Translations under genes and position numbers: made by a program | Assembly: GCF_003674065.1 (NCBI RefSeq) | Contig: NZ_RDBE01000010.1 | Location: 525,321-589,320 of the forward strand | DNA from: Nocardioides mangrovicus | Lineage (GTDB): Bacteria > Actinomycetota > Actinomycetes > Propionibacteriales > Nocardioidaceae | Length of the DNA: 64,000 nucleotides | Direction of reading: 5' to 3' | Part shown: piece after piece, positions 9,730-39,107 of the stretch | Layout of the letters: each line of letters starts with the position of its first letter | Numbering within the stretch: the stretch's first letter is position 1 | Notes under the pieces: generated by a model | The model's database searches: none | Seen by the model: only the letters and a program-made list of their open reading frames with translations | Told to the model about the DNA's origin: nothing

Positions 9730-9836
9730 GCGGCGCTCCCCCTCGGTCGTGTGTCGTCGATGTGGTCGTGCCTGGTGATGACGAACCGGGCACCGCCGCG
9801 GTGGCGGTGCCCGGTCCGGTGCAGCCGTGGAGGGCC

Positions 9837-10112
9837 TCAGATGGAGGCGGACTCCCCGGTAGCTGCAGCGATGTTGTTGTGCTGGGTGCGCACGTCGTCG
9901 CGCCCCTCGTGCAGCGCGGTCTGCAGCTTGTCGAACGCCGGCTTGAAGTCGTTCCAGGCCGAGCGGAACTTGTCCGCGTTGTGGCCCTTCCAGACGGCCT
10001 GGTTCAGGTGACCGTCACCCTTCGACTTCATGTCCTGCGCCTGGTCGCCGAGCTCGCCCAGACCCTTGTGCAGGTTCCGCAGCGTCTCGAGATCGCCACC
10101 AACTTCCGGCAT
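9837..10112 (-). CDS. WXG100 family (ESAT-6-like) secreted protein
   Basis: A 91-aa two-helix protein with a WKG turn (VWKGHNADKFRSAWNDF) at about residue 40, the WXG motif of small T7SS substrates. C-terminal helix about 45-80. Such proteins dimerise and are exported by the EccC/EssC motor. The ATG at 10112 is chosen over an upstream in-frame start at 10142 because AAGGGGG lies 8-9 nt before it and WXG100 proteins normally start close to helix 1. First gene of the minus-strand T7SS operon, divergent from eccC. Confidence 0.85.
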   Translation of the reverse strand: MPEVGGDLETLRNLHKGLGELGDQAQDMKSKGDGHLNQAVWKGHNADKFRSAWNDFKPAFDKLQTALHEGRDDVRTQHNNIAAATGESASI

Positions 10113-10288
10113 GATCCTTGCCCCCTTCGAGGGATGTGTCACGGCCCGCGAAGGCCCTTGTTAGGTGAGGATTTACCACCGTCCGGCGCCCCCCAAACAT
10201 CGGATTCACAAGTTGTTGAGGAGCCGCCAGGCGCCCCGGTCGCGGATATCCTGGGTGGGCACGTCTCGTGCGGACGAGGGGACTCCTG

Positions 10289-13200
10289 GTGCGACTGCTC
10301 ATCACGGCCGTCATCGACGGCGACCCCGTCGACCTCGCCATCGACGCCGAGGACGACGCCCGGGTGCGCGATCTGGCCACCGTCATCGCCGGGGCGTACC
10401 CGCGCGTCCACGCCGCCGCTCTCGCTGCCGCCGCGCCGGTCGGAGCGCCGTCGCTGCGCGTCGTCGGCCGCAGCGAGGAGAGCACGCCGCGGCTCCCGCC
10501 GCCGGACCTGTTCTGCGACACCGATCTGCTCGACCCCGACGAGCCGCTGACGCACAGCCGGGTGCGCCACGGGGTGGTGCTCGGCGTCGGCAAGCCCGCG
10601 CCGGGATCCTTCGCCGAACCGGCCGGGCTGCTCGAGGTGCGCATCAGCAGTGGTGCCGGCGCCGGCACCGTCGCCCGGCTCGGCGCCGGCGAGTACACCG
10701 TCGGCGGCGGCGCGGACTGCGACGTCGTGCTGCCGGACCTGGGCCTGCCCGAGCGGTGCCTGTGCCTGCTGGTGCGCGTCGACGGCACGGTGGAGCTGGT
10801 GCCCGACGCCGGCGTCGTCGGCCGCTCGCGGCCTGCCCCGGTGCGGGCGCGGCCGTTGGAGGGCCCGATCGTCCTGGACATCCACAAGCAGCGGGTGCCC
10901 AAGAAGCCGAAGCCGGGCTCGACGCTGCCCGACGGCACGGTGACGGCCGACCCGATGGGCGACATCCCCCTGCTGCACATGGATCGCAAGCCCGTCGAGG
11001 CACCGCAGGACTGGCCGGTGGGCCAGACGCTCGCCGTCGGCACCACCCTGCTCGACCTGGTGCGGGTGTCCGCGCCGGACGCCTCGCTGTCGCCCAACCC
11101 GGCCGGCGCCACCCTCGACTACAACCGACCGCCGCGATTGCTGCCGCCCGACCGGCGCACCAGCTTCGGGCTGCCCAACGAGCCGCAGCGGCCGGAGAAG
11201 ACGCCGATCCCGCTCCTGATGATCTTCATCCCGATCGCCCTCGGCGGGGCGATGCTCGCCATCACCCACAGTGCGTACTCCCTGCTGTTCATGCTGATGT
11301 CGCCGATGATGGCCATCGGCAACTACGTCAGCGGCAAGCGCTCGGGCAAGCAGCGCTACACCGACCAGGCCAGCGACTACGCCGAGCGGATGCACAAGAT
11401 CCAGCAGGACGCCCTGGCGGCGTTGGTGGAGGAGCGCACGGCCCGGCGCCGTGACTTCGCCGACCCGGCCGAGATCATCATGACCGCCGTCGGCCCGCGC
11501 TCGCGGTTGTGGGAGCGCCGCCAGACCGACCCCGACTTCCTCGTGGCGCGCCTCGGCACGGCAGACCAGCCCTCCGACGTCACGGTGAGCAACCCGGCGC
11601 GGGAGAGCCACGAGGGCGACCTGGCGTGGACGGCGCCCGACGTCCCGGTCACCGTCGACCTCGCCGAGGTGGGCGTCACCGGCATCGCCGGCCCGGCCGA
11701 GGAGCGGCTCGGGCTGGCGCGCTGGATCATCGGCCAGACCGCCGTGCTGCAGACCCCGGCCGACGTCGACATGGTGCTCCTCACCGATGTCGGCGGCGAC
11801 GCGGACTGGAACTGGGTGCGCTGGTTGCCGCACGTGCGCTCCGACGCCGGCGACTCCGAGCTGGTCCACATCGGCGTCGACGAGGAGAGCACCGCTCGTC
11901 GCGTCAGCGAGCTGATGGCCGAGATGCAGCAGCGGCACGAGGCATTGGGCGAGGGCTCCGGAGGGCTCGGTGGCGGCGCCAACAAGCTGGCGGCGTTCCA
12001 GCCGATGCTGATCGTGCTCGACGGCGCCCGCCGGCTGCGGCTGCTGCCCGGCGTGCCGGAGCTGCTGCAGCTCGGGCCGCGCGTGCGCATGTACTTCGTG
12101 TGCCTCGACGCCGATGCGCGGCTGCTGCCCGAGGAGTGCAACGCGGTCGTCAACGCCGTGCACGGCGACTTCTCGCTGAGCGTGACCGGACGTCCGGTCG
12201 TCGAGGGCGTCCGGCCCGACCTGGTGAGCATCTCGTGGGCCGAGATGCTGGCCCGCACCCTCGCGCCGATCCGCGACGTCAGCGACGTCGAGGCGGGCGG
12301 GTCGCTGCCTGGCTCGTCGCGGCTGCTCTCTGTGATCCGGCTCGACCCGCCGTCGGTCGAGGCGGTGCTGGAGCGGTGGACCTCCGTCGGCCGCACTACG
12401 GAGGCGGTCATCGGCGAGAGCGCCGACGGTGCGTTCGCCATCGACATGGTCCGCGACGGTCCGCACGGTCTGGTGGCCGGCACCACCGGCGCCGGCAAGT
12501 CCGAGCTGCTGCAGACGATCATCGCCTCGCTGGCCATCAACAACCGGCCCGACGAGATGAACTACGTGCTCATCGACTACAAGGGCGGCGCGGCCTTCAA
12601 GGACTGCAACAACCTGCCCCACACGGTCGGCATGGTCACCGACCTCGACGGCCACCTCACCACGCGAGCGCTGGAGAGCCTGGGCGCGGAGCTGCGGCGC
12701 CGCGAGCACCAGCTGGCGGCCGCCGACGCCAAGGACATCGAGGACTACCTGGCGGCCAAGGGCCCCGACGACGAGCCGATGCCGCGGCTGCTGATCGTGA
12801 TCGACGAGTTCGCCGCGCTCGTGGCCGAGCTGCCCGACTTCGTCACCGGCCTGGTCGACATCGCCCGACGCGGCCGCTCGCTCGGTGTCCACCTGATCTT
12901 GGCCACCCAGCGCCCGGCCGGCGTCGTGAGCGCGGAGATCAAGTCCAACACCAACCTGCGCATCGCGCTGCGGGTCACCGACAGCGGCGACTCCTCCGAC
13001 GTCATCGAGGCGCCCGACGCCGCCCAGATCGCGAAGGCGACGCCCGGTCGCGCCTACGCCCGGCTCGGGCACTCCAGCCTGATCCCGTTCCAGTCCTCGC
13101 GCGTCGGTGGCCGGCCGCGCGGCGAGGACGCCCCGGCCGACATCAACTTGCGCCAGGTCGCCTTCGCCTCACTGGGCACTCCCGAGGAGCGCCGGGCGGC

Positions 13201-24133: not shown

Positions 24134-25462
24134 TCACGCCCACCGGTTGACGACCTGGCCGACGTAGCCGTTGGCCATCAGGTCGTCGATGCAGGAGATC
24201 GGGGCGTGGGGCACCGCGACCCCTTGGCTGTTGAGTGCGAAGACCTCGCTGGAGAGCACCCGGCCGTCGACGCCGGTGACCTCGCGCACGCTCTCGATCG
24301 CGCGGTTCAGCGTGCCGCCGCGCGCGTAGTCGTTGCGCTTGCGCAAGAACACGACGAAGTTGATCGACCCGGCGATCAGCATGTGCGTCGCCTCGACCGG
24401 CAGGTGCTCCTCGGCCTGCAGGGCGTAGGTGGAGATGCGGTTGAACACCTCCATCGAGGAGTTCGCGTGGATCGTGGACAGCGAACCGTCGTTGCCCTGG
24501 CTCATCGCGTTGAGCATCGTCACGATCTCATCGCCCAGCACCTCGCCGACGATGACCCGGCTGGGGTTCTGCCGCAGCGAGCGGCGCACCAGGTCGGCCA
24601 TGGTGACCATGCCGAGGCCCTCGGAGTTGGGCAGCCGCTCCTCGAAGGCCACCACGTTGGGGTGGAGGTCCTCGAACTGGTCGAGTCCGAGCTCCAGCGC
24701 CCGCTCCACCGTGATCAGCCGCTCGTGGGCGGGGATCTCGTTGGCCAGCGCGCGCAGCAGCGTGGTCTTGCCCGAGTTCGTCGACCCGGCGAGCATCACG
24801 TTCTTCCGCGCCTTGACGCAGGCCCGCAGGAAGGAGGCGAGCTCGGGCGTCATGGTGCCGTTGGCCACCAGGTCGTCGAGCCCGACCTTGCCCAGGCGCG
24901 AGCGCCGGATCGAGATGCTGGGTCGCGAGCACACCGACTGCACGGCCGAGAGCCGGGAGCCGTCGGGCAGCCTCAGGTCCAGCTGGGGGTTGGCGGTGTC
25001 GAAGGGGCGCGAGGCCAGACCGACGCTGGCGGCGAGGATCTGGATCAGCTCGACGAGCTCCTCGTCGCTCTCCGCCACCGGGTCGGAGAGCTCCTCACGA
25101 CCGTCGGCATAGCTGACGAAGACCCGGTCGCAGCCGTTGATGTCAACGTTCTCGACCTCGGGGTTCTGCAGCAGCGGCTGCAGCCGGCCGACCCCGAACA
25201 GGGCCGCGTGGATGGCGGCGGCGAGCAGCTCCTCCTGCTCGACGCTGGGCGGCGTGCGGCCGATGCTGATCTCGGCCCGGGCGTGGTCCTCGAGCACCTG
25301 GACCACCAGGGACCGGGCGTACTGGCGCTCGTCCTCGGGAGCCATGGGTGTGCGGGCGGCGAGCTCGTCGCTGCGTCGCTGCTGGTTGAGCCGGTCGGCG
25401 ACCTGGGCCCGCAGGGTGCGGACCAGCTGCGGGTCGGCGACGGCGGGCTGGGTCATCGTCAC
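24134..25462 (-). CDS. tadA: Tad pilus assembly ATPase TadA/CpaF
   Basis: Cytoplasmic secretion ATPase (GspE/CpaF family, 442 aa) that powers Flp pilus assembly. Walker A GSTNSGKTT near residue 225, Asp box ERALELGLDQFEDLHPNVVAFEER, Walker B-like SRVIVGEVLGDE near 303 and His box STIHANSS near 325. The GTG at 25462 overlaps the tadZ stop (GTGA) and has GAGG 7 nt upstream, favouring it over the ATG two codons later. Confidence 0.95.
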   Translation of the reverse strand: MTMTQPAVADPQLVRTLRAQVADRLNQQRRSDELAARTPMAPEDERQYARSLVVQVLEDHARAEISIGRTPPSVEQEELLAAAIHAALFGVGRLQPLLQNPEVENVDINGCDRVFVSYADGREELSDPVAESDEELVELIQILAASVGLASRPFDTANPQLDLRLPDGSRLSAVQSVCSRPSISIRRSRLGKVGLDDLVANGTMTPELASFLRACVKARKNVMLAGSTNSGKTTLLRALANEIPAHERLITVERALELGLDQFEDLHPNVVAFEERLPNSEGLGMVTMADLVRRSLRQNPSRVIVGEVLGDEIVTMLNAMSQGNDGSLSTIHANSSMEVFNRISTYALQAEEHLPVEATHMLIAGSINFVVFLRKRNDYARGGTLNRAIESVREVTGVDGRVLSSEVFALNSQGVAVPHAPISCIDDLMANGYVGQVVNRWA

Positions 25463-26367
25463 GACGTCACCTCGCTGCGCTCGCGATGGCGGCGGACGCC
25501 GCGGCGGCGCCCCCGTCGGTTGGTGGGCTTGACCTCGCTGCCGTCACCGCCGGGCAGCCCCGCCGTCACGGCGTCGTCGTCCTCGACGGCGGCCGCGACG
25601 TCGTGCGGCGTCGCGGAGCCGGCCAGGTCGGCGTAGGCCTGGGCCGCCACGGTGCGTGCGCTGCGGGCCAGCATGCTGCGCTCGGGCCGGTAGACGGTGA
25701 CGCCCTCGAACATCACGACGGCGCGCGGGTCGTAGGCGATCGACCCGTAGTCGCGGACCCACCCCAGCCCGCTGCGGATCGCGGCTGAGGCGGCCTGCCG
25801 GTCGCGCTCCTGGTCGGGGTCGGCGATGCCGACGATGCCGACGCGCAGGCCGCGCTCGCGGGCCGGCTCCTCCAGCGTCTCCAGCCGGCGGCGCAGGTGC
25901 AGGGCGCTCCACGCGGTGGGGCGGTAGACCGCCAGCAGCAGATCGGAGCCGAGGACGACCGCCAGGTGGTCGGAGGTGGCCTGCACCTGACCGACGTCGA
26001 CGAACATGTCGGCGTCGGAGACCTGGGAGAACAGGTCGATCAGCGTCGGCCACATCGGCGCGACGGCCGCGGCCTGCTCCGGGCCGGGCAGGCCGACCAG
26101 CACCGGCTGGCCGCCGACGGCCTCTTGGGTGTGCTGAGCGACCGCGACGGGGTCCATCCCGCGCCGGGCGGCCGGCAGCACCGAGAGCAGGCCCCGGTCG
26201 GGATCCATGGCCCGGCCGTCGGAGCGTTGCAGCCGCAGCCCGACGTCGCCGCCGAGCGGGTCGGCGTCGAGCACGATGGTGGGTGCGGGCCACAGCGTGG
26301 CCAGCAGGAGGGTCGTGGTGGTCGCGCCGGGGGCTCCCTTGGCGGACATCACGGAGATGATCGCCAC
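25459..26367 (-). CDS. tadZ: TadZ/CpaE-like ParA-type localisation ATPase
   Basis: A 302-aa ParA/MinD-like P-loop protein with an N-terminal deviant Walker A (SAKGAPGATTTTLLLA) and LDADPLGGDVGLRL; in Tad systems this protein localises the machinery at a pole or site. The N-terminal receiver-like domain of classical CpaE is absent, as in other actinobacterial members. The C-terminal 30 residues are strongly basic (NRRGRRRGVRRHRERSE). GTG start 3 bp after the upstream gene. Confidence 0.88.
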   Translation of the reverse strand: MAIISVMSAKGAPGATTTTLLLATLWPAPTIVLDADPLGGDVGLRLQRSDGRAMDPDRGLLSVLPAARRGMDPVAVAQHTQEAVGGQPVLVGLPGPEQAAAVAPMWPTLIDLFSQVSDADMFVDVGQVQATSDHLAVVLGSDLLLAVYRPTAWSALHLRRRLETLEEPARERGLRVGIVGIADPDQERDRQAASAAIRSGLGWVRDYGSIAYDPRAVVMFEGVTVYRPERSMLARSARTVAAQAYADLAGSATPHDVAAAVEDDDAVTAGLPGGDGSEVKPTNRRGRRRGVRRHRERSEVTS

Positions 26368-26370
26368 GAG

Positions 26371-27066
26371 TTACTCCCCGGGGGAGACGAGGTCGACGTC
26401 GGGGTCGGTGTCGCTCGGCAGCACGGTCATCGCCACGTTGCCGTTGGCCGACAGCGCGGCCACCGCACCGGCGTCGGAGCGCTTGACGACCACCGTGACG
26501 TTGGCGCTCCCGCTGGCCCCGCCGGAGTGGACCCCGACGACGCGAGCGGCATCGACCACCGAGTCGCCGGGGTTGTAGGAGCTGGCCGCCGTGCTGCTCT
26601 GGCTGGAGGTGACGAAGTAGAGCCGGACGACGTCGCCGGGGCTGGGCACGGTGCCGGGGCGCTTCGCGGAGCTCACCACGACACCGACCTCCTCGGCGCC
26701 GGCGGGCAGGATCTGGCCCTTGCTGAACATCGTGCGCGTGATGAAGGCGCCGCGGGGGACGCCGACCAGGGCGCGGCCGCCGGAGACGGCGCTCAGCGCG
26801 GTGGTGCGCACCAGGGTCGCGGTGTCGCCGGCGACCTTCACCTCGCGGAAGTCGGAGGCCTCGACCTTCTGGCCGACCTCGATGTTCTGCGCCGCCACCA
26901 GCACCGAGACCCGGTCGCCGCTGCGGAAGGCGATGAGTGCGCTGCCCAGCGCGCCGAGCAGGATCAGCAGCACCGCCAGCGCGGCCAGGGCCGGACGTCG
27001 GTCGCGCCGCGCTGCGGGCAGCCGGCCTCGCACCGCCTCACGCTCGCGGACAGGGCTCTGGACCAT
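26371..27066 (-). CDS. CpaB/RcpC-like SAF-domain pilus assembly protein
   Basis: A 231-aa protein with one N-terminal membrane helix (about 26-48) and an extracytoplasmic SAF domain (about 52-120, VLVAAQNIEVGQKVEASDFREVKV), as in CpaB/RcpC of Flp pilus systems, which act at the cell wall. The ATG at 27066 has GGAGGG 7 nt upstream. First gene of the operon running to 20663. The 27067-27234 gap upstream holds no recognisable ORF and presumably the operon promoter. Confidence 0.85.
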   Translation of the reverse strand: MVQSPVREREAVRGRLPAARRDRRPALAALAVLLILLGALGSALIAFRSGDRVSVLVAAQNIEVGQKVEASDFREVKVAGDTATLVRTTALSAVSGGRALVGVPRGAFITRTMFSKGQILPAGAEEVGVVVSSAKRPGTVPSPGDVVRLYFVTSSQSSTAASSYNPGDSVVDAARVVGVHSGGASGSANVTVVVKRSDAGAVAALSANGNVAMTVLPSDTDPDVDLVSPGE

Positions 27067-27234
27067 GGGGTTCCCTCCGTCGTCGCATCTCGCACCGAGC
27101 CACGGGCCCGACCGTGACCACCACCAGGACCGCCCCGATACCGGCCTGACGCCGTTCGCGCGCGGCCGTCGACCGCGCAGAACGGTTGTTCCCCTGCTGG
27201 AGCGCGGCAAACCCGTGCGTCACCGCGTATTTGG

Positions 27235-27859: not shown

Positions 27860-28075
27860 CTACTTCGCGGTGTCGCGATAGGCGCGCCAGCCCCACCGAC
27901 CGAGCACGACGGCGATGATCAGGTTGACCACGATGAGCACCGAGTGCGCCACGTAGTACCCGGTCGGTCGGTCCTCCTGCGTGTCGACCAGCGCCTTGGT
28001 AAACCGCGCGTAGGTCAGCACGTTCCAGGTGGCGACGGCGAGCAGGACCACGGCGTGCTTGCGCTCGAGCTTCAC
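27860..28075 (-). CDS. Small membrane protein, SCO4848-like family
   Basis: A 71-aa protein with two membrane helices (about 7-24 and 42-62) and the pattern MKLERKHAVVLLAVATWNVLTYARFTK...YYVAHSVLIVVNL, resembling the small SCO4848 family of actinobacterial membrane proteins of unknown function. GTG start with a leaderless-type TACGCT 7 nt upstream. Monocistronic by position. Confidence 0.75.
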   Translation of the reverse strand: MKLERKHAVVLLAVATWNVLTYARFTKALVDTQEDRPTGYYVAHSVLIVVNLIIAVVLGRWGWRAYRDTAK

Positions 28076-28082
28076 GCCGCCG

Positions 28083-28088
28083 AGCGTA
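28083..28088 (-). promoter_or_regulatory. Putative leaderless -10 element
   Basis: TACGCT on the minus strand, 7 nt before the GTG at 28075. Matches the TANNNT-N7-start layout and supports the assigned start. Confidence 0.5.
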
Positions 28089-28095
28089 GCGGGGA

Positions 28096-28127
28096 CCCGG
28101 TTTCACCCGCCGGCCGGCGAAACCGGG
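28096..28127. repeat. Imperfect palindrome in intergenic region
   Basis: CCCGGTTTC and GAAACCGGG bracket a self-complementary CGCCGGCCGGCG core, giving a 32-bp near-perfect hairpin. It lies in the 329-bp gap 28076-28404, between the P450 gene end and the SCO4848-like gene start, about 20 bp upstream of that start. No other gene is visible in the gap. Confidence 0.7.
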
Positions 28128-28230
28128 GGACGAACCGGGGCGGACCGGTCGCCGAACACCCGGATTCGCGCGCCCGTGGGGTGGTTTGTCTGGGTGCGTG
28201 GGCAGTGGGTGGGTTGGCGCGGCAGGGGCT

Positions 28231-28265
28231 GGACGGTTTCCCCCGCCTAGGCGGGGAAGCCGTCC
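28231..28265. terminator. Strong GC-rich hairpin downstream of the P450 operon
   Basis: GGACGGTTTCCCC and GGGGAAGCCGTCC flank a CGCCTAGGCG-type core: arms of 16-17 nt pair with one mismatch and one bulge around a TA centre. It lies 140 bp after the P450 stop on that transcript. It could terminate the P450 operon, but no T-tract follows. Confidence 0.5.
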
Positions 28266-28354
28266 CACGAACCAGGGCGAAACACCCCAACGAAGGGCGG
28301 TTTCCTCCGCTCGCGCGTCCGTTTCGCCCCGATGACGGCGTGGGCCCGCCGGGC

Positions 28355-28403
28355 GCCCAGCTCAGCTCGGTCGCCCCAGCGCGGTGAGCCCAGCTCAGCT
28401 CGG
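28355..28403. repeat. 16-bp direct repeat
   Basis: GCCCAGCTCAGCTCGG occurs at 28355-28370 and again at 28388-28403, offset 33 bp, immediately 3' of the P450 stop codon. AGCTCAGCTC is itself an internal repeat. Likely a small slippage or duplication product; no function suggested. Confidence 0.7.
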
Positions 28404-28404
28404 C

Positions 28405-29757
28405 TCAGCGTGGGGCGACGGCGATCCGCGCCCCGTGGCGCGGGACGCTGGTGATGTTGCGGACCTTGGGCTCGTCGTCGCCGACCGCCTCGAGGTCCCA
28501 GGTCGTCAGCACCTCGCGCAGCACCGCGACACCCTCCATCAGCGAGAAGCCGGCGCCGATGCAGCGCCGCACTCCGCCGCCGAAGGGCAGCCAGGTGTTC
28601 GGCGGGATCCGGCCGTGCTCGAAGCGCGAGGGGTCGAAGACCAGGGGCAGCGGGAAGTTCCGCGGGTCGGAGTGGGCGAGCAGGATCGACGCCGCCACTG
28701 TGACGCCGGCGGGCAGGTCGTAGCCGCCGACCCGCGCCGGGGCCATCAGGTGCCGCACCACCATCGGGATGACCGGGTGGAGCCGCATCGCCTCCTTGAG
28801 CACCGCCTCGAGGTGGTCGTCGTCGCCGCCGAGCGCGGCCTCGCGCGCTCGCGCCAGGTGCCCGGGGTCGCGGCCGAGCTCGTAGAGCGACCAGCTCAGC
28901 GCCGTGGCGGTGGTCTCGTGGCCGGCGAGCAGCAAGGTGACCAGCTGGTCGCGCAGCTCGTCGTCGCCCAGGCGCTCCCCCTCGTCCTCGACCAGCAGCA
29001 GCCGGGAGAGCACGTCGCCGCGCTCGGCGAGGTCGGGGGCCCGTCGCCGCTCGGCGATCTCGGCGTAGATGACGCGGTCCAGCTCCTGCTGGTTCTCGTA
29101 GGTCCGCCGCCACGGGCCGTAGCGGTGCAGCCCGGAGAGGCCCCAGCCCAAGAACACCAGCGGTGAGATGTTCACGGTCTGGTTGACCAACGGGCGCAGC
29201 TCGGCGAGCCGGTGCTCGTCGGTGACGCCGAAGACGACCTGCAAGATCACCTCGAGGGTCAGCGCGTTCATCCGGTCCAGCGACCGGAAGGGCCGGCCCG
29301 GTGTCCACGACCCGACCTCGGTCTTGGCCAGCCCCGTCACGACGTCGGCGTAGCCGCGCAGGGCGTGCCCGTTGAAGGCCGGCATCAGCAGCTTGCGGGC
29401 CCGCTGATGCGTGGCGCCGTCGACCAGGAGCAGCGAGTGCTCGCCCATGACCGGGCCGAGGATGGCGTTGCCCTTGCCGGCGTGGAAGACCTCGGGATCG
29501 CCGGCGAAGATCTCCTTGAGCACCTCCGGACGCTCGAAGACCACGAGGTGGCGGCCCTCGGGAAGCACGTCGAGGGTGAAGGCGTCGCCGTAACGGCGGC
29601 GCATCGCCGGCACGAACCGGTGCCGGAAGCCCAGCAGCCCGATGCTCTGCACGATGGCGTGCGAGCGCGGGCCCGGCGGCAGGGCAGCGACGTCGATCGC
29701 CGGCCCCCGGCGCGGCCGGGGACGCATCCGCTGCAGCCGGTCCTCTGTGACGCTCAT
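28405..29757 (-). CDS. Cytochrome P450
   Basis: Heme monooxygenase, 450 aa, with the I-helix oxygen-binding motif AGHETT (about 276-281), the ExxR motif (KEAMR, about 319-323) and the heme-ligand loop FGGGVRRCIGAGFS with Cys399. Soluble; no membrane anchor. Substrate unknown. Its ATG overlaps the stop of the FAD oxidoreductase gene (ATGA), so it is the last gene of a coupled five-gene operon that also encodes a ferredoxin-like protein, a plausible electron donor. The linkage to a repeat peptide and cupin oxygenase suggests a tailoring role. Confidence 0.95.
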   Translation of the reverse strand: MSVTEDRLQRMRPRPRRGPAIDVAALPPGPRSHAIVQSIGLLGFRHRFVPAMRRRYGDAFTLDVLPEGRHLVVFERPEVLKEIFAGDPEVFHAGKGNAILGPVMGEHSLLLVDGATHQRARKLLMPAFNGHALRGYADVVTGLAKTEVGSWTPGRPFRSLDRMNALTLEVILQVVFGVTDEHRLAELRPLVNQTVNISPLVFLGWGLSGLHRYGPWRRTYENQQELDRVIYAEIAERRRAPDLAERGDVLSRLLLVEDEGERLGDDELRDQLVTLLLAGHETTATALSWSLYELGRDPGHLARAREAALGGDDDHLEAVLKEAMRLHPVIPMVVRHLMAPARVGGYDLPAGVTVAASILLAHSDPRNFPLPLVFDPSRFEHGRIPPNTWLPFGGGVRRCIGAGFSLMEGVAVLREVLTTWDLEAVGDDEPKVRNITSVPRHGARIAVAPR

Positions 29758-30899
29758 CTCGACATACTAGGAGTATGTCCGGGTCCTCGCCAGGCCCGCA
29801 GCAACGCGGCCGTCAGCCGGGGCGTGACCAGTCCGTCGCCCAGCCCGATCTCCACCAGCTCGTCGAACACGCGCTGGCTACGACGCGCTGCGGTGATGCC
29901 GGCGTCGACCACCGACTCGTGGTCGGAGAGCCCGGCGACCACGGCGGTGTGGCGCAGGTGACGACCGATCAGCCGGTGCACCGCCCGCCGGTAGGCGAGC
30001 CCCGCGTCGCCGCCCGCGGCCGCGGCACGGCCCGCCAAGATGCCCGTGGCCACGGCGTAGTAGATGCCCTCACCCGTCATCGGGTTGATCAGCGACGCGG
30101 CGTCGCCGGCCAGCAGCACCGGACCGTCGGGCTGGGTCCACCGGAACGACGACAGCGGCAGCTGGTGTCCGGTGAACGCGCGCGGGTCGGTCATCGATCC
30201 GGGGATGAGCCGCTCCAGCTGGGCCAGCAGGTGCGCCCGGCTGGGCCGCTCCTGGCCGACCAGCTCGCCATAGCCGACGTTGGAGAGCCCGTCGCCGCGG
30301 TCGAAGGCCCAGGCGTACGCCGGCTGCAGCCCGTCGGCGTACCGGATCAGCTGTCGCCCGCGCCCCGACTCCGGCGTCGGCACGTAGCCCCGCAGCGCCA
30401 CCGCCCGGCGGCCGCGGGCCGAGCGGCCCAGGAGCCAGCGGCGCACGATGGACTGGGCGCCGTCGGCGCCGAGCACGACCCGGGCGCGGATCTGCTCGTC
30501 GAGCAGCATCTCCTCGCCCACCCGGCGCAGCGAGGTGACGCGGTGACGGCGGCGTACCGCTCCGGCTGCCTCGGCGTGCGCCACGAGCCGGGCGTCGAAG
30601 ACCTCGCGCGGGATCACCTGCACCGGCCGGGTGAGCGGCCGCTCCACGCCGTGGTCGCCACGCGAGAGCTCCAGCCGGGTGACCGGCGCCCAGCCGTCGG
30701 CCGCGTCGTGCACGCCGACCGAGGCGAGCGCGTCGAACACGTGCGGGGCCACGCCGTCGCCGCAGCACTTGTCGCGCGGGAAGTCGGCGCGGTCGAGCAG
30801 CAGCACCCGCAGCGACGGGTCGGCGTGCAGCGCCCCGAGGGCGGCACTGGCGCCGGCCGGACCGGCACCGACGACGACCAGGTCCCAGGTCGTGGTCAC
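29754..30899 (-). CDS. FAD-dependent oxidoreductase of the geranylgeranyl reductase family
   Basis: A 381-aa FAD enzyme with the N-terminal dinucleotide motif VVVGAGPAGASAA, the family motif DKCCGDGVAP (about residues 43-52), GADGAQSIVRRW and the second FAD motif GPVLLAGDAASLINPMTGEGI. Relatives reduce prenyl double bonds or oxidise small molecules; the substrate is not predictable. The GTG at 30899 overlaps the preceding stop (GTGA) and its own stop overlaps the P450 start. Could pass electrons or modify the same product as the P450. Confidence 0.9.
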   Translation of the reverse strand: MTTTWDLVVVGAGPAGASAALGALHADPSLRVLLLDRADFPRDKCCGDGVAPHVFDALASVGVHDAADGWAPVTRLELSRGDHGVERPLTRPVQVIPREVFDARLVAHAEAAGAVRRRHRVTSLRRVGEEMLLDEQIRARVVLGADGAQSIVRRWLLGRSARGRRAVALRGYVPTPESGRGRQLIRYADGLQPAYAWAFDRGDGLSNVGYGELVGQERPSRAHLLAQLERLIPGSMTDPRAFTGHQLPLSSFRWTQPDGPVLLAGDAASLINPMTGEGIYYAVATGILAGRAAAAGGDAGLAYRRAVHRLIGRHLRHTAVVAGLSDHESVVDAGITAARRSQRVFDELVEIGLGDGLVTPRLTAALLRAWRGPGHTPSMSR

Positions 30900-31798
30900 G
30901 GCAACGGTCGCATCGCCGCGACCTGGAACCTCGGCACCGGGTTCTCCGCCCGCGCCGAGCAGGTCAGGTAGGCCGCCAGGTCGTCGGTGGTGCGGACGAC
31001 CTCGACCTCCCAGGTGAGCCCGCCGGGCGTCTCGAACCAGGCCCGCCAGCGGCCCTCGACCTGCTCCCAGGGACGCGCCGGGCGCAGCGCGTCCAGGCCC
31101 CACTCACCCAGCTCCTCGCGCACCGCGAACTCCGCGAACTGCACCGACATCGGGTAGCCGGCCCGCCCGCGCAGCCGGTCGGGGGTCATCCGGCCGGCCA
31201 GGTGCGCCTCGGCGACGGCGACCGCGGACTCCGGGTCGGTCCAGCCGTAGCCCAGGCCGTGCGGCAGCACCAGCATGTTGCCGGCCCACCGGTCGCCTCC
31301 GAGGTGGGAGACCTCCCAGGTGTGGTCGGGGTAGGCCTTTGTCAGCGCCCTCGCCACCGGCCGGCCGCGCTCCGCGCAGCAGGCGTCGTGGCGGCCGTGG
31401 GTGCACACGCCGAAGACCGGCTCGGTGTGGGCTGCGAGCCCCGGCGTGTCCCCGCGGCCGAGGGCCTCGAGGTCGAGGTCGAGCACCTCGTGGTGATCCT
31501 CGAGCACGGTGGTCTCGAGCCAGGGCCGCACCGGGTCGGTGCACGCGGCCCACACGCGCACGCCCTCCTGCCCACGCTGCTGATGCCTCCTGGTCAGCAG
31601 GATCCGCACCTTCGCCGAGCTGGACCGGCGGCGCAGGGCGGCCAGGAGATTGCCGGGCAGCGCGGTGTCGCGCAGCGCCGACTGGCCCCAGGGTCCCGGA
31701 TGCTCCACGAGCAGGAAGGCCCGGACGTGGGTGGCCGTGCCGATGGTCTGGTCGCCGCGCTCCTGGGCGGCCAGCGAACAGCGGAAGCTGCCGCTCAC
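30896..31798 (-). CDS. Sucrase/ferredoxin-like protein
   Basis: A 300-aa member of the sucrase/ferredoxin-like (Suc_Fer) family, a thioredoxin-fold [2Fe-2S]-type protein. Diagnostic stretches are VCTHGRHDACCAERGRPVA and VSHLGGDRWAGNMLVLPHGLGYG. In this operon it is a candidate redox carrier for the P450 or FAD enzyme; that is inference. The GTG at 31798 overlaps the cupin gene stop (GTGA) and is preferred over an upstream in-frame start. Confidence 0.85.
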   Translation of the reverse strand: MSGSFRCSLAAQERGDQTIGTATHVRAFLLVEHPGPWGQSALRDTALPGNLLAALRRRSSSAKVRILLTRRHQQRGQEGVRVWAACTDPVRPWLETTVLEDHHEVLDLDLEALGRGDTPGLAAHTEPVFGVCTHGRHDACCAERGRPVARALTKAYPDHTWEVSHLGGDRWAGNMLVLPHGLGYGWTDPESAVAVAEAHLAGRMTPDRLRGRAGYPMSVQFAEFAVREELGEWGLDALRPARPWEQVEGRWRAWFETPGGLTWEVEVVRTTDDLAAYLTCSARAENPVPRFQVAAMRPLP

Positions 31799-32925
31799 AC
31801 GACGACCTCGAGCAGCCCCTCCCGCACGAGGCGTCGGCACAGCACCACCCGGCTCTGCGGGTCGAGGTCGACGAGGTCGGCAGGACTCAGCCCACCCGAC
31901 GACAGCGTCAGGTCGCGGATCCGCTCGAGGTGCGGGGTGAGACGCGCCGGGACCGTCAGCACCCGGTCCCCGAGCAGCACCTCGACGCTCTCTCCCTGCG
32001 TCCGCATCCGCATCGGGTGCCCCGGACGACGACCCAACCGGGTGGTGTCCTCGATCGCGGCCAGGGCGAGCCGGTCGCGCAGCCCGCCGCGCAGCCGTGG
32101 CGGGCGACCGCCCAGGAACGCGCCGATCTGGCGCTGCGCCTCCGCCTCGACGTCGACCTCGCGCAGCCGGTCGGCCAGCGAGCCGAGCCGCTCGCGCAGG
32201 CCGTCGGCCAGCGCGGCGGGATCGTCGAGGTAGCCCGCCGGCACGTGCTCGTCGCCGGCCAGCGTGCGGCCCACCACCTTGCGCAGGACGTCACCCCAGG
32301 TGACCTGGTTGATTCCGAGGGTGACGTGCAGCGACGCCCCCTCCTGCGCCCGGGCGGCGTGCGGTGTGCCCGTGGGCAGGTACATCGACAGGCCGGGCTC
32401 GAGCAGTACGTCGCGCCGCTCGCCGTCCTCGTGGACCTCCCACAGCTTCGTGCCGTGGGTCTGAAACACGAACACGTCGTGGGCGTCGGAGTGCACCGCG
32501 AAGCCCTGCGAGCCGGGCGGGGTGAGGTAGGCGTTGGCCTGGCAGGGGTGGCCCAGCTCGTCCTCGAGCTGGGCGCACAGCTCGGTCAGCGGCTCCCAGT
32601 AGCGCTGCAGGCCCTGCAGCACCACGGACGCGCCGTCCTCGAACAGGTCCAGCAGCCGGCGCGCGTCGACCAGCCCGGTCATCGGCTGCCCCGACATCGT
32701 CGCCGAGCGGGTGTAGGTCGAGGCGGGCAGCACGGCGCCGTCCTTGGCCACGCGGACCGACGGCGTCCGGATGGCCGTGGCGGTCAGCAGCCGGTCGACG
32801 TCGTCCAGGGAGAGGTAGCCGACCAGGTGGTCCGGTTCGGTCTGGTGGAGCAGCACGCGTGACGCCCAGACCTTCTCCTTGAAGGTCTGGGCGTCACCGC
32901 TCAGCAGCTCGAGCGCGGAGATCAC
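31795..32925 (-). CDS. Cupin-4/JmjC-type Fe(II) 2-oxoglutarate oxygenase
   Basis: A 376-aa protein of the cupin-4 (ribosomal oxygenase/ROXA-like) family. The metal triad is visible: His145-x-Asp147 (VHSDAHD) and His189 (GTPHAA), with FQTHGTKLWEV between and a helical/winged-helix C-terminal part. Relatives hydroxylate side chains in proteins (Arg or His of ribosomal proteins). Here the gene begins (GTG) directly after the stop of a small acidic repeat peptide, with zero spacing, so the peptide may be its substrate; that is inference. Confidence 0.88.
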   Translation of the reverse strand: MISALELLSGDAQTFKEKVWASRVLLHQTEPDHLVGYLSLDDVDRLLTATAIRTPSVRVAKDGAVLPASTYTRSATMSGQPMTGLVDARRLLDLFEDGASVVLQGLQRYWEPLTELCAQLEDELGHPCQANAYLTPPGSQGFAVHSDAHDVFVFQTHGTKLWEVHEDGERRDVLLEPGLSMYLPTGTPHAARAQEGASLHVTLGINQVTWGDVLRKVVGRTLAGDEHVPAGYLDDPAALADGLRERLGSLADRLREVDVEAEAQRQIGAFLGGRPPRLRGGLRDRLALAAIEDTTRLGRRPGHPMRMRTQGESVEVLLGDRVLTVPARLTPHLERIRDLTLSSGGLSPADLVDLDPQSRVVLCRRLVREGLLEVVV

Positions 32926-33165
32926 TCAGGCGTCGGTGGCGTCGCCGTCGGAGCCGTCGCCGTCGACGCCGTCGGCGCCCTCGACGCCCTCGACGCTGTC
33001 GGCCGGGCCCTCGCTGCCGTCGGTGGCGTCACCGTCGGAGCCGTCGCCGTCGACGCCGTCCTCGCCCTCGTGACCCTCGACGCTGTCCGCCGGGCCCTCC
33101 TGCGAGCCGTCGCCACCGGGGGTGCTGGTCTCCATGTCGTCGTCGTTCAGCGGCTCGTCGGCCAT
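32926..33165 (-). CDS. Small acidic peptide with two 29-residue repeats, possible modified-peptide precursor
   Basis: A 79-aa, extremely Asp/Glu/Gly-rich peptide with no hydrophobic segment. After an N-terminal 22 residues (MADEPLNDDDMETSTPGGDG...) come two near-identical units beginning EGPADSVEG and ending DGVDGDGSDGDATD. Lys and Arg are absent. GAGAGG lies 8 nt before the ATG, so it is a well-formed gene. It heads the operon peptide, cupin oxygenase, ferredoxin-like, FAD enzyme, P450. Leader plus repeated core with oxidative enzymes is the layout of a RiPP cluster, but no family is recognised. It could instead be an acidic scaffold. Confidence 0.75.
   Translation of the reverse strand: MADEPLNDDDMETSTPGGDGSQEGPADSVEGHEGEDGVDGDGSDGDATDGSEGPADSVEGVEGADGVDGDGSDGDATDA
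32931..33104. repeat. 87-bp tandem repeat (2 copies) in the acidic peptide gene
   Basis: Copies at 32931-33017 and 33018-33104 share long identical runs, beginning CGTCGGTGGCGTC and differing at scattered positions. The unit is 29 codons, so the reading frame is kept. Confidence 0.85.
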
Positions 33166-33242
33166 GACGTTGTCCTCTCGTCGGTGAAGTTCGGTCCAGT
33201 CTGGCCATCGTGTCAGCCCCCGGGCAAGGCCCCTACGGGCGG

Positions 33243-34085
33243 CTACGCTGCGTGCCTCATCCGCCGCCGCCACACCACGTAGGCCGCTCGCCGCAGCCAG
33301 GCTGTGCGCAGCGCTCGCAGCGAGCCCAGCACCTCATCGGCGGCCGAGACTGTCTGCGGCAGGTCGGCGCGGAAGTGGCGGTGCACCGCCCGCGCCTGCC
33401 GGGCCTGCTCGGTCGCCAGTCGCACGCTCCACTGGGTGGTGCTGATCCGGAAGCTCGCCTGAGGCCGCGGCAGCGCCACGAGGTCGACGTGCTCGAGCAC
33501 GCGCAGGTAGGTGAACTGGTCGATCAGGTAGGGGTACCGCGCGTCCCAGCCCCCGATCTTGCGCAGCGCGTCGGCTCGCAGCAGTACGCAGCCCGGCTCG
33601 CCGAGCAGGTTGCTGCCCGCGCGCACGATCTCGCGGATCGCCAGCGGCCCCGGCACCAGACCCGACATCCGGCCCAGACCCCGGCCGTGCAGCAGGACCT
33701 CGCCAACGACGTCGACCAGGTCGCGCGAGCAGGCGGCCACGCCGGCGGTCGGGTGCTCCTCCAGCGCGGCGACCTGCGCGGCCAGCGCATCGGGAGCGAT
33801 CAGGTCGTCCCCGCACAGCAGCTTCACGTAGGTGCCGCGGGCGGCGTCGGTCGCCGCGTTCCAGTTCCGCTCGGCGCCGCCTCCCGCCGGTGTCCTGAGC
33901 AGCCTGACCCGGGGGTCGCCGCGGAACTGCTGGAGGCGCTCCCAGGTGCCGTCGTCCGACGCGTGATCGGCCACGACCAGCTCGAGATCGGGGTACGCCT
34001 GGTCCAGCACCGAGCGCACCGTCTCCTCGATGTAGGGCGCATTGCGGTAGCTGGGCACCACCACCGAGACCACCGGCGCGCTCAC
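33243..34085 (-). CDS. Family 2 glycosyltransferase
   Basis: A 280-aa GT-A fold glycosyltransferase with N-terminal VSVVVPSYRNAPYIEETVRSVLDQ and the nucleotide-sugar/metal motif CGDDL near residue 90. No transmembrane segment; C-terminus basic (RRAAYVVWRRRMR). The GTG at 34085 overlaps the epimerase gene stop. Third gene of a surface-glycan operon. Confidence 0.88.
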   Translation of the reverse strand: MSAPVVSVVVPSYRNAPYIEETVRSVLDQAYPDLELVVADHASDDGTWERLQQFRGDPRVRLLRTPAGGGAERNWNAATDAARGTYVKLLCGDDLIAPDALAAQVAALEEHPTAGVAACSRDLVDVVGEVLLHGRGLGRMSGLVPGPLAIREIVRAGSNLLGEPGCVLLRADALRKIGGWDARYPYLIDQFTYLRVLEHVDLVALPRPQASFRISTTQWSVRLATEQARQARAVHRHFRADLPQTVSAADEVLGSLRALRTAWLRRAAYVVWRRRMRHAA

Positions 34086-36128: not shown

Positions 36129-39107
36129 TCAGCCCAGGAGCCCCTCGCGGCGGGCGATGGCGGCCGCCTCGGTGCGGCCCCCCGCTCCGAGCTTGGCCAG
36201 GATGTGGGAGACGTGGACGCTGACGGTCTTGGTGGAGATGAACAGCTGCTTGCCGATCTCGCCGTTGCTGCGGCCGGCGGCGACCAGGGTCAGGATCTCC
36301 TGCTCACGGGGGGTGAGGTCGTCGTTGCCCCGGGCGCGGGGACCGGGGCCACCCAGTGCGTCGAGCTCGGCCAGCAACGGCTTCGCTCCCAGGCGCTCGG
36401 CGCACGCGCGGGCCGCGGCCAGCAGCGTGCGCACCTCCTCGGCGCCGGTGGGCAGCGCGGCGGCGAGCCGGGTACGCGACCGGGCGATCTCGACGACGTG
36501 GCCGAGGGCCTCGAAGCCGGCGAGGTCGGCACGCCAGGCCGCGACGAGCTCGTCCTCGGCGGGTGCGTCGACCCCGGCCAACCGGCAGAGGCGCAGGTGC
36601 TCGGCGTGCAGCCGCCGGGCCCAGGCGATGCCCTCGGGCCCCCAGTCGTCGGTGGACTCACGCTGCGCGCGGAGCGCGAGGTCGGCGCTTTCCCGCACCC
36701 GGTCGGCATCGGCGACCACACGCCGCCGTACGTCGGCGGCCTCGGTGTCCAGCCCGCGGGCGAGCGCGCCCAAGGTGACGGCCGCCAGCCGGACCTGGCC
36801 GTTGAACCGGCCCCGCCACAGCCGCGAGAGCGTCTCCACGGCGTCGTCGTGAACGGCCAGCGCGGCGCTGCGGTCGCCGGCCACCCCGTGCAGCTCGATG
36901 GTGGCCGGGGCGGCCGTGATGGCGACGACGCCGTCAGCCTCCCACTGCTGACGCAGCCGCGGCGCGACGCCGAGCTGGTCGACCTCGCCCCGGCCCGCCT
37001 GCACCGTGAGCAGTCCGGCGCGCAGCGTCGCCTCGGGCATCACCGGCGGCGACTGACCGCTGACGTCGGCCAGCACGCCCACCTCGTCCCAGTCGCCGAC
37101 CAGGTGCGCGATCAGCAGCAGGCTGAACCGCGAGTCGAACCCGTAGGGCGCCCAGGAGCTGCCGATCTCCTGGGCGAGCTGCCAGGCCTGGGTGAAGTAG
37201 TCGCGCGAGCGGTCCAGCTCGGCGCGGTCGTAGTACCAGCGCCCGAGCAGCCAGACCGCGCGGAGCTGGGCCTGCCGTGCACCGGTACGCGCAGCCGACT
37301 CGGCCGCGGCGTGCAGCGCCTGCTCGACGTCCTCGACGTCGGCGGCCCCGTCGTAGCGGTTGACCGCGGCCAGGCTCGCGGCGATGTCGCTGCCCAGCCG
37401 CGGCATGCCCAGCGCCTCGGCCATCGAGAGCGCCTCCACGCCCACCTCGCGGGCCTCCTCACGGCGGTGGTGGAAGCCGAGCGCGCGGGCGTGCAGGTGC
37501 AGCAGCCTCGCCCGCAGCGCCGACGGCGCCGGGTCCATCTCGGCCAGGGCGGGCGTGGTGTAGGCCAGGGGGTCGAGCCGGGTCTCGGCCACCGTGATGG
37601 TGTCGGCGACCGCTGCTCGCAAGATCGCGCGCTGCACCGGGTCGGCGTCCTCGCCCAGCTGCTCGAGCAAGCGGACGGCCAGGGCGAGCCCGCGGGGTGG
37701 GTTGCCGGCAGCGACCAGGGCGTCGACGGTGCGCGCACCCAAGGTGGCGACGTCGACCTCGTGGTCGGCGGGCAACGAGGGGTCGGCCAGCAGCTCGAGG
37801 GCGGTCTCGAAGTGGCGGGCCGCCTCGATTGGGCCGCCCACCGACATCGCCTCCTCGCCGGCCCGGATGCTGGCGTCGAGCGCGGCCGCCGGCTGACGTG
37901 CGGCGCGCGCGTGCCGGGCCAGCTCCGCGGCGGTGCCCAGCGACGGGTCGGCGAGCATCGCCCGGGTGTACGCCGCGTGCAGGCGCGTGCGCTCTCCGGG
38001 CAGCAGGTCGTCGTAGACGGCCTCGGCCAGCAGGGCGTGGCGGAAGGCGTAGGTGTCGTCACGGTTCGGCACCAGCAGGTGATGTCCGACGGCGTCGCGC
38101 AGCCCGGCGTCGAGCTCGGCGGCCCCGAGTCCGGACACCGCGCTGAGCAGGCCGTAGCCGACGCGGCGCCCGGCGACCGCAGCGTCGCGCACCACCTCCT
38201 GGCCCTCCGCGCGCAGCTGCTCCAGGCGCAGCAGCAGCAGGTCGGCCAGGCCCCAGGGCAGCTCACCGGCGTGCTCGAGGCCGGCGGCGCCGACCAGCTC
38301 CTCGACGAAGAACGCGTTGCCGTCGGCGCGCTCGACGATGCCAGCCAGATCGGCCTCGCTGAGCGGCCCGGCGTGCAGGTCGCGGACCAGGGTGCGCACG
38401 GCCTCGGACGGCAGGGGCTCGAGCTGCAGACGCTCGACCCCCGGGATGCGGGCCCACTCAGCAGCCTGCCGGCGCAGCGGGTGACGGCGGTGGAGGTCGT
38501 CGCTGCGGTAGGACACCACGACCGCCACCGACGCCGCGAAGGCACGGGTGAACAAGAAGGTCATCAGGTCGCGGGAGGACGAGTCGGCCCAGTGGGCGTC
38601 CTCGACCACCAGCAGCAGCGGCTGCAGCTCCGCCGCCGCGGTGAGCAGCGCGTGGACCGCCTCGTAGAGGGCGCCGCGATCGAGGGAGTCCGCCGACTCC
38701 TCCCCGAGCAGCCGCCGCCCGGGGCGCAGTCGACCCAGGGCGGGGTGGGCCTCCGCAACGGCGTCGACCAGGTCGGGACGCTCGGTGACCAGCCGACCGA
38801 CGACCTCGGAGAACGGCAGGTAGGGCAGGGCGCTGTCGCCGAAGTCCAGCGAGTGCCCCGCCACCACCTGCCACCCCTCGGCGAAGGCCACGTCGCGCAG
38901 CTCGGTGAGCAGTCGCGTCTTGCCGACGCCCGCGTCACCGGCCAGCAGCACCGCCTGTGCGGACCGGCCGGCCGGCCGCGCCGGGTCGGCCCGCACGCCA
39001 CTGAGCGCCGCGAGAGCCCTCAGCTCGGCCTCGCGGCCGACAAGCGCGTTCAGGGGCGTGGTCGGCACGTCCGCCATTGTGGCGGGCGCCTCCGACAGCG
39101 CCGTCAC
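36129..39107 (-). CDS. Large ATPase-type LuxR family transcriptional regulator (LAL)
   Basis: A 992-aa regulator. N-terminal AAA/STAND ATPase (about 20-330) with Walker A LLAGDAGVGKTRLL near residue 57 and Walker B-like LLLVVEDAHWAD; a long TPR-like helical region (about 400-900); C-terminal LuxR HTH (about 928-992, LTPREQEILTLVAAGRSNGEIGKQL...TVSVHVSHIL). Ligand and targets unknown. Two starts are possible: GTG at 39107, inside a 14-bp repeat that duplicates an AAGTGA stop/start junction, and ATG at 39077 with GGAGG about 11 nt upstream. It follows a 35-codon ORF on the same strand. Confidence 0.88.
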   Translation of the reverse strand: MTALSEAPATMADVPTTPLNALVGREAELRALAALSGVRADPARPAGRSAQAVLLAGDAGVGKTRLLTELRDVAFAEGWQVVAGHSLDFGDSALPYLPFSEVVGRLVTERPDLVDAVAEAHPALGRLRPGRRLLGEESADSLDRGALYEAVHALLTAAAELQPLLLVVEDAHWADSSSRDLMTFLFTRAFAASVAVVVSYRSDDLHRRHPLRRQAAEWARIPGVERLQLEPLPSEAVRTLVRDLHAGPLSEADLAGIVERADGNAFFVEELVGAAGLEHAGELPWGLADLLLLRLEQLRAEGQEVVRDAAVAGRRVGYGLLSAVSGLGAAELDAGLRDAVGHHLLVPNRDDTYAFRHALLAEAVYDDLLPGERTRLHAAYTRAMLADPSLGTAAELARHARAARQPAAALDASIRAGEEAMSVGGPIEAARHFETALELLADPSLPADHEVDVATLGARTVDALVAAGNPPRGLALAVRLLEQLGEDADPVQRAILRAAVADTITVAETRLDPLAYTTPALAEMDPAPSALRARLLHLHARALGFHHRREEAREVGVEALSMAEALGMPRLGSDIAASLAAVNRYDGAADVEDVEQALHAAAESAARTGARQAQLRAVWLLGRWYYDRAELDRSRDYFTQAWQLAQEIGSSWAPYGFDSRFSLLLIAHLVGDWDEVGVLADVSGQSPPVMPEATLRAGLLTVQAGRGEVDQLGVAPRLRQQWEADGVVAITAAPATIELHGVAGDRSAALAVHDDAVETLSRLWRGRFNGQVRLAAVTLGALARGLDTEAADVRRRVVADADRVRESADLALRAQRESTDDWGPEGIAWARRLHAEHLRLCRLAGVDAPAEDELVAAWRADLAGFEALGHVVEIARSRTRLAAALPTGAEEVRTLLAAARACAERLGAKPLLAELDALGGPGPRARGNDDLTPREQEILTLVAAGRSNGEIGKQLFISTKTVSVHVSHILAKLGAGGRTEAAAIARREGLLG

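Follow-up and report, generated by a model that had tools for sequence, protein, structure and literature searches.

A JmjC oxygenase encoded next to an acidic repeat peptide in Nocardioides mangrovicus: a candidate RiPP-like system recurring across actinobacteria

Analysis of a 64,000-nucleotide stretch of the Nocardioides mangrovicus genome (contig NZ_RDBE01000010.1, positions 525,321 to 589,320; hereafter the window) revealed a minus-strand gene run that begins with a small acidic repeat peptide and a JmjC_2 (cupin) Fe(II)/2-oxoglutarate (2OG) oxygenase, a pair that recurs across actinobacterial genomes. The best explanation, to which we assign a probability of roughly 0.62, is that the peptide serves as a dedicated substrate, its leader being bound by a winged-helix domain resembling a RiPP recognition element (RRE) and its core repeats being hydroxylated by the oxygenase, most likely on Asp, in the manner of a ribosomally synthesized and post-translationally modified peptide (RiPP). 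Judged by sequence and position, a precursor composed of leader and core is genetically encoded beside a candidate modifying enzyme. In its anatomy, the locus looks like an RRE-guided RiPP pathway, of which it is a candidate member. The first-pass annotation of the window had read five consecutive genes as the layout of such a pathway. Of these, peptide and oxygenase, usually accompanied by a Suc_Fer protein, are conserved, whereas the flavin adenine dinucleotide (FAD) enzyme and the cytochrome P450 are unlinked in the relatives compared.

Searches for the oxygenase covered 58 relatives (own genome included), 396 genomes from the phylum (by profile), and named genome contigs. Any match, weak ones counted, was found in 32 of the relatives, and a close orthologue is present in 10 of the 24 same-genus genomes, own included. 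The phylum set contained 58 genomes with a match at 1e-15 and 51, again including the own genome, at 300 bits or more; the named genome contigs yielded five oxygenase loci (Brooklawnia, Propioniciclava twice, another actinomycete, and an Eremiobacterota metagenome-assembled genome). For the pairing analysis, 82 loci were chosen by the oxygenase alone (at least 300 bits) with the window left out, 78 of them with upstream DNA; segments below 100 bits were left out as well, and the peptide count also omits four loci at contig edges (L041, L086, L092, L104). An acidic repeat open reading frame (ORF) directly precedes the oxygenase in 73 of these 78 loci, or in 76 under a looser filter. As controls, 279 other genes from 26 wide regions (crude gene calls based on GC content by codon position) and 12 JmjC_2 genes scoring below 300 bits were passed through the same filter with no hits, the looser filter admitting nine and none, respectively. 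Loss of the peptide from the side of the cupin in relatives had been set beforehand as a test that could refute the first-pass reading; with 73/78 loci against 0/279 control genes, the peptide withstood it.

Four of the five loci failing the filter (L020, L055, L061, L107) carry a variant peptide as judged by eye. That of L061 contains more Lys/Arg, L107 has the variant repeats PTEDDENLDAPGEHSQDTGDE, and the Eremiobacterota locus L055 encodes, at about 7749-7943, a leader of the family type (FSDADVKTIW) and DDQGRDD repeats between poly-proline stretches. Some of the low-scoring JmjC_2 genes are preceded by small ORFs of other make, e.g., a 74-aa ORF 98 bases upstream in L118 and a 48-aa ORF in L120. 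At a further locus (L045 in genome G024, 8465-9581), the oxygenase gene is split over three frames with peptide and Suc_Fer open, representing either decay or an assembly error.

The 79-aa peptide of the window had been described as a short leader followed by two 29-residue repeats. This description was confirmed, the repeats agreeing at 25 of 29 positions, and it extends to the relatives, which share a conserved leader followed by repeated cores that vary. Anchoring on the acidic motif was possible for 66 out of 76 peptides, and their alignment showed Leu in 55, Asp two places on in 62, Asp or Glu at the two positions that follow (58 and 65, respectively), then Ile or Met in 62, and Thr two further on in 58. 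Behind this constant leader, the cores consist of D-G-D-A-T / D-A-D-G-T units (type 1), of GPADGG...DGGADG units (type 2), or of rarer kinds such as GAGDAAGDG (L058) and SADGTDQGVEGGTYGPRDA (L060), the core of the window joining an EGPAD start to a DGDATD end. In cores cut at a fixed distance behind the motif, a procedure by which over-extended ORFs (e.g., L039, L102, L105) bring in foreign residues, Asp, Gly, and Ala are each present in 76/76, Thr in 75, Lys in four, and Cys in three (over-extended ORFs included), and aromatic residues are few. At 36%, the median share of Asp exceeds that of every other residue in the cores, and the 1153 core Asp residues counted stand mostly after A/T/G/S and before G/A/S/T. 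Neither Pfam nor NCBIfam matched the window peptide, which a search of the own genome found at one place. The peptides of four relatives likewise had no NCBIfam match, and in Pfam only one of them had two matches far below the cut-offs (E 0.7 and 2.3).

The core type was compared with the phylogeny of the oxygenase in a tree of 75 of the 83 loci (window included). Core-type labels follow our own patterns, with type 1 being broad enough to take in L058 and L060. A single branch (support 100/99) separates all 22 loci with type 2 cores from the rest, a fit reached by 0 of 500 shuffles. This group holds L048 of the window's own genus, L049 and L102 of its family, and members of other families. As L048 falls inside the type 2 branch, core type tracks the oxygenase rather than the host species. 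Across species boundaries, the two vary in concert, which we regard as the most telling indication of the peptide being the substrate.

The oxygenase carries a PF08007 domain with HxD...H, placing it among JmjC_2 / ribosomal-oxygenase-type enzymes. The motif had been called intact from the letters alone, and H145, D147, and H189 are indeed invariant in 14 aligned sequences. We take these three residues to be the iron ligands and K160 to be the 2OG-binding lysine, as in ribosomal oxygenases (ROX). Its best solved relatives are NO66 (E 3.4e-34) and MINA53 (4.9e-31), then YxbC and YcfD, in agreement with Foldseek; the model, from six sequences, reached a mean pLDDT of 78. The solved PF08007 relatives are named as protein hydroxylases, consistent with the initial placement of the cupin in a family acting on protein side chains. 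This kinship also lends itself to a different explanation, in which the peptide stays unmodified and works as an acidic partner, either a metal buffer or delivery factor or a regulator, with the oxygenase acting on another, e.g., ribosomal, protein like NO66, MINA53, and YcfD. We consider this unlikely. It draws on the closest solved relatives being ribosomal oxygenases, on the extreme acidity of the window peptide, and on the oxygenase being the only PF08007 match of its genome. However, variable repeated cores behind a constant leader and a core type tracking the enzyme clade fit a substrate better, and the patchy occurrence of the enzyme (10/24 same-genus genomes, any match in 58/396 phylum genomes) is unlike that of a housekeeping modification. 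A ribosomal oxygenase with an unrelated neighbor was set aside as less probable because of the peptide association and the match between core and clade.

Besides its catalytic part, the oxygenase has a C-terminal domain that, in an AlphaFold2 (AF2) model, adopts a winged-helix / RRE-like fold. The model of residues 286-376 shows strands at 20-25, 28-33, and 36-41, then a helix at 42-57, a 3-residue helix, and a helix at 71-83. In structural comparison, it scored best against the MINA53 winged helix (Z 11.3), followed by that of NO66 (up to 9.5) and, below these, by the RREs of MccB (Z 7.9), McbBCD (7.5), PbtF (7.4), and TbiB1 and PqqD (6.8 each), with YcfD (7.4) and the oxidase BmdC (7.4) mixed among the latter. 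On the basis of this model, the domain may bind the leader. According to PMC12710340, RRE-like folds are present in JmjC proteins of fish and algae, the closest bacterial homologues of which occur in RiPP-like contexts.

A Suc_Fer gene follows within 1.5 kb downstream of the oxygenase in 61 of the 71 loci with room for it, and L035 has one in addition by tblastn. Across 71 sequences, a Cys, CxxGxHDxCC, and HxGGDR are conserved, and the PF06999 match together with these cysteines identifies the protein as a member of the Suc_Fer / thioredoxin-like ferredoxin family. All 16 close Suc_Fer orthologues in other relatives (E 1.9e-60 or better) stand beside an oxygenase, cut by the contig end in G025, and more distant matches occur at type 2 oxygenases or elsewhere. 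No called gene in the wider flanks of five loci without Suc_Fer matches the Suc_Fer profile, with the crude GC-position calls used there recovering the oxygenase in four and missing it in L136; in the Eremiobacterota locus, no Suc_Fer was found behind the cupin either. Such loci reduce the minimal unit to peptide and oxygenase. In one locus without a called Suc_Fer (L134 in genome G336, 7554-10333), the same-strand gene after the oxygenase encodes a 429-aa protein resembling MFS transporters by sequence.

In the mechanism we propose, precursor and oxygenase, usually with Suc_Fer, would form the minimal unit. The C-terminal domain would hold the acidic leader through L-x-D-[DE]-[DE]-[IM]-x-T, and the Fe(II)/2OG site would then hydroxylate the repeated core many times, most likely on the beta-carbon of Asp between small residues. 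Suc_Fer, belonging to a [2Fe-2S] protein family, would most likely donate electrons to keep or return the iron to Fe(II), other roles being possible; it is regarded as accessory because some lineages do without it. As product, one would expect an Asp/Gly peptide bearing hydroxyl groups and plausibly binding metal, a guess based on the metal affinity of beta-hydroxyaspartate. FIH is an enzyme akin to the JmjC oxygenases. Asp was chosen as the probable site because of its highest median share of the cores, its position mostly between small residues, and the hydroxylation of L-Asp by FIH reported in PMC9814778. In an overlapping variant, which appears somewhat unlikely to us, another residue would be modified (Thr/Ser/Ala/Gly, or His in HDGG cores), or the chain would be further oxidized, cleaved, or crosslinked. 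Ala and Gly are as universal as Asp in the cores as cut, with Thr in all except one, and PMC12257519 reports ornithine hydroxylation by PbsQ, a cupin from a RiPP pathway, indicating that the cupin fold accepts several residues. The leading share and small-residue context of Asp speak against this variant, and in the Eremiobacterota core DDQGRDD, too, it is Asp that recurs.

Several observations weigh against the reading of the peptide as a leader-guided substrate hydroxylated on Asp. The peptide filter and the core-type patterns were fixed after examples had been seen, and one close locus (L103) has no convincing peptide before its oxygenase. Part of the match between core and clade is explained by linked genes being inherited together. 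With Gly and Ala as universal as Asp, the latter is a choice on chemistry. No Suc_Fer was found in nine of the 71 loci (L035 taken off), and clustering of the genes in the 26 regions (window included; functions not named) gave no family besides cupin and Suc_Fer common across host families beside the module. Hence, no maturation protease or exporter is pointed to; in RiPP pathways, genes for these are often, but not always, found beside the precursor, and distant genes could serve these purposes. The RRE matches of the C-terminal domain lie at Z 6.8-7.9 with Foldseek E values of 0.06 or worse, and a sequence profile of this domain alone matched neither RRE nor ROX entries in the PDB. Since Z values below 8 can reflect a common arrangement, leader binding is something that we infer.

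The two remaining genes of the run behave differently. Of 39 genomes, eight have the FAD gene, the window's own genome among them. The seven others carry it on a different contig from the cupin (G005, G024, G043) or about 1.6-2.1 Mb off (G038, G041, G046, G048), and among the 26 regions the FAD gene stands beside the module in the window only. Within the 24 same-genus genomes, own included, seven have a close oxygenase and the P450, three the oxygenase only, ten the P450 only, and four neither, with G013 (type 2 oxygenase) scored as lacking a close oxygenase; P450 and oxygenase show no association in the genus. In L031, L033, and L035, a P450 is located about 3.2-5.9 kb downstream of Suc_Fer, so nearness is common to some of the genus, and the tight run of FAD enzyme and P450 behind the module is found in the window alone. 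That all five genes constitute one natural-product pathway, with FAD enzyme and P450 tailoring the peptide further, is therefore highly unlikely, even though start and stop codons overlap or touch through all five and the best NCBIfam profile of the P450 is the RiPP P450 ApyO (142 bits, far below the cut-off of 525). The five-gene pathway was set aside given the unlinked FAD gene in seven other genomes and a P450 that is not associated with the cupin, being present in ten same-genus genomes without a close cupin and missing in three with one.

The features of the locus are compiled in Table 1.

Table 1. Features of the peptide-oxygenase locus and its two local neighbor genes (window coordinates)
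Feature	Position	Strand	Basis or remark
Candidate precursor peptide, 79 aa	32926..33165	-	ORF with AGGA stretch upstream of the ATG start; ORFs of this type also stand before the cupin in relatives
Leader part, residues 1-21, LNDDDMET matching L-x-D-[DE]-[DE]-[IM]-x-T	33103..33165	-	Column counts, 66/76 peptides anchored
Core repeat 1, residues 22-50	33016..33102	-	25/29 identical to repeat 2
Core repeat 2, residues 51-79	32929..33015	-	Repeat comparison
JmjC_2 (cupin) Fe(II)/2OG oxygenase, 376 aa	31795..32925	-	PF08007 E 6.9e-19; best solved relatives NO66, MINA53
H145, D147, H189 and K160	32359..32493	-	Invariant in 14 aligned sequences; align with NO66 HxD, K, H
Predicted C-terminal winged-helix / RRE-like domain, residues 286-376	31798..32070	-	AF2 model, mean pLDDT 89, 5 sequences
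Suc_Fer (thioredoxin-like ferredoxin family) protein, 300 aa	30896..31798	-	PF06999 E 1.4e-17
Geranylgeranyl-reductase-type FAD enzyme	29754..30899	-	TIGR02032 above cut-off; FAD_binding_3 (Pfam); local neighbor, outside conserved module
Cytochrome P450	28405..29757	-	PF00067; local neighbor, outside conserved module

The descriptive claims of the first-pass annotation on this run stood up to inspection. The junction sequences of the five minus-strand genes were read and show the reported spacing of zero or four bases: the TGA of the peptide directly adjoins the GTG of the cupin (0 bp), GTGA overlaps occur at the cupin/Suc_Fer and Suc_Fer/FAD enzyme junctions, and an ATGA overlap at FAD enzyme/P450. 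Pfam and NCBIfam returned the expected gene identities (JmjC_2, Suc_Fer, FAD_binding_3/TIGR02032, p450). A 449-aa ORF at the FAD gene is a mechanical over-extension, and the gene was taken as 29754-30899. GC fractions by codon position are 0.81/0.51/0.95 for the peptide and 0.78/0.47/0.94 for the cupin, with similar values in the Suc_Fer and P450 genes; the peptide thus behaves as expected of a translated gene. A consensus scan of 28000-33600 found no promoter-like site (sigma-70 type only) and two terminator-like sites, both on the plus strand. The stated lack of an adjoining transporter or protease also held, with four of the six flanking proteins scanned having Pfam matches of neither kind and two having none. 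Farther out, minus-strand ORFs at 24134-27210 resemble pilus-assembly genes, presumably encoding CpaF-like ATPase, CpaE-like, and CpaB-like proteins, as judged by sequence. A large AAA/LuxR-type regulator is encoded at 36129-39107, and members of its cluster occur downstream of the module in L031, L033, L036, and L038.

Extension of the search toward more distant JmjC_2 genes gave several further loci. In L050 (2205-11638), such a gene lies inside an NHLP/YcaO RiPP cluster, which we count in favor of the best explanation. This cluster encodes a pair of NHLP-like precursors, of which one exceeds the NCBIfam cut-off, as well as two YcaO/SagD cyclodehydratases and, below its cut-off, a SagB-like dehydrogenase. 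On the Streptomyces clavuligerus plasmid NZ_CP065235.1 (L120, 4769-6164), the 48-aa ORF directly before a distant JmjC_2 cupin encodes a similar-looking leader (SLEPDEIEVI) followed by two units rich in Asp and Pro. Genes for an S9 peptidase and an ABC transporter lie close by; judged by these sequences, the locus is possibly a complete pathway of a sister family. Another plasmid, NZ_CP107797.1 of Streptomyces sp. NBC_00557 (L121, 203201-216031), carries two cupin genes, S9 and M13 peptidases, a carbamoyltransferase, and an MFS transporter. A protein search of plasmids found distant cupins in 123 records; all of them covered less than 80% of the query, and the best identity among the matches listed (20 of 123) was 34.8%. 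A DNA search with a type 2 cupin gave a 94-base match in two Streptomyces records. In viral contigs, a scan with the oxygenase alignment confirmed no relative.

Next, the system was compared with known ones. It shares with NO66, MINA53, and YcfD (PF08007) the catalytic fold, HxD...H, the aligned lysine, and the C-terminal winged helix, but differs by an identity of only about 20% and by being encoded beside a small repeat peptide whose make-up changes along with the enzyme; the motifs HxDxHD and LRTPxxR are common in the present family and not seen in the aligned NO66. The Bacillus subtilis protein YxbC (7zcc, 1vrb) is also a solved bacterial JmjC_2 relative (E 2e-17), yet its profile match stops at position 278 of 379, short of the C-terminal domain. 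Unlike in the RRE-dependent RiPP pathways of MccB, McbBCD, PbtF, TbiB1, and PqqD, the linked enzyme here is a JmjC oxygenase, the cores have almost no Cys and few aromatics, and no conserved third family stands beside the module. Peptide-modifying dioxygenases, reportedly the subject of Iyer et al. in 2010, may bear on the present family. In line with the early remark that no family with this set is described, no account of the peptide family was found in the open-licence PMC literature, and the strings GPADGG, HDGGADG, DADGTD, DGTDGDATD, PADGGA, and TDGDATD do not occur in the open-licence PMC papers searched. The nearest published system found is that of PbsQ/BpmG in biphenomycin-like RiPPs, likewise a cupin/JmjC hydroxylase in a ribosomal peptide pathway, with PbsQ shown to act on the peptide (PMC12257519). 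There, hydroxylation occurs after an MNIO and an arginase on FHAFRF cores, whereas the present oxygenase is the only conserved candidate for a modifying enzyme and is encoded beside Asp-rich repeats.

Taken further, these data may point to a widespread, hitherto undescribed class of actinobacterial ribosomal peptides, whose Asp-rich repeats would be converted into poly-hydroxyaspartate peptides, e.g., a genetically encoded metal chelator, by a JmjC oxygenase that contains its own leader-binding domain, with repeat number and type being freely rewritten and leader and enzyme staying recognizable. This wider view is tentative, and we hold it at somewhat less than even odds. If it is true, about one in eight of the 396 sampled actinobacterial genomes would harbor a two- or three-gene peptide-modification system whose product was not found described. 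The oxygenase would then be an enzyme writing hydroxyl groups along repeat peptides, and ribosomal oxygenases would be linked to RiPP enzymes via a shared leader-binding domain, a link testable with two genes.

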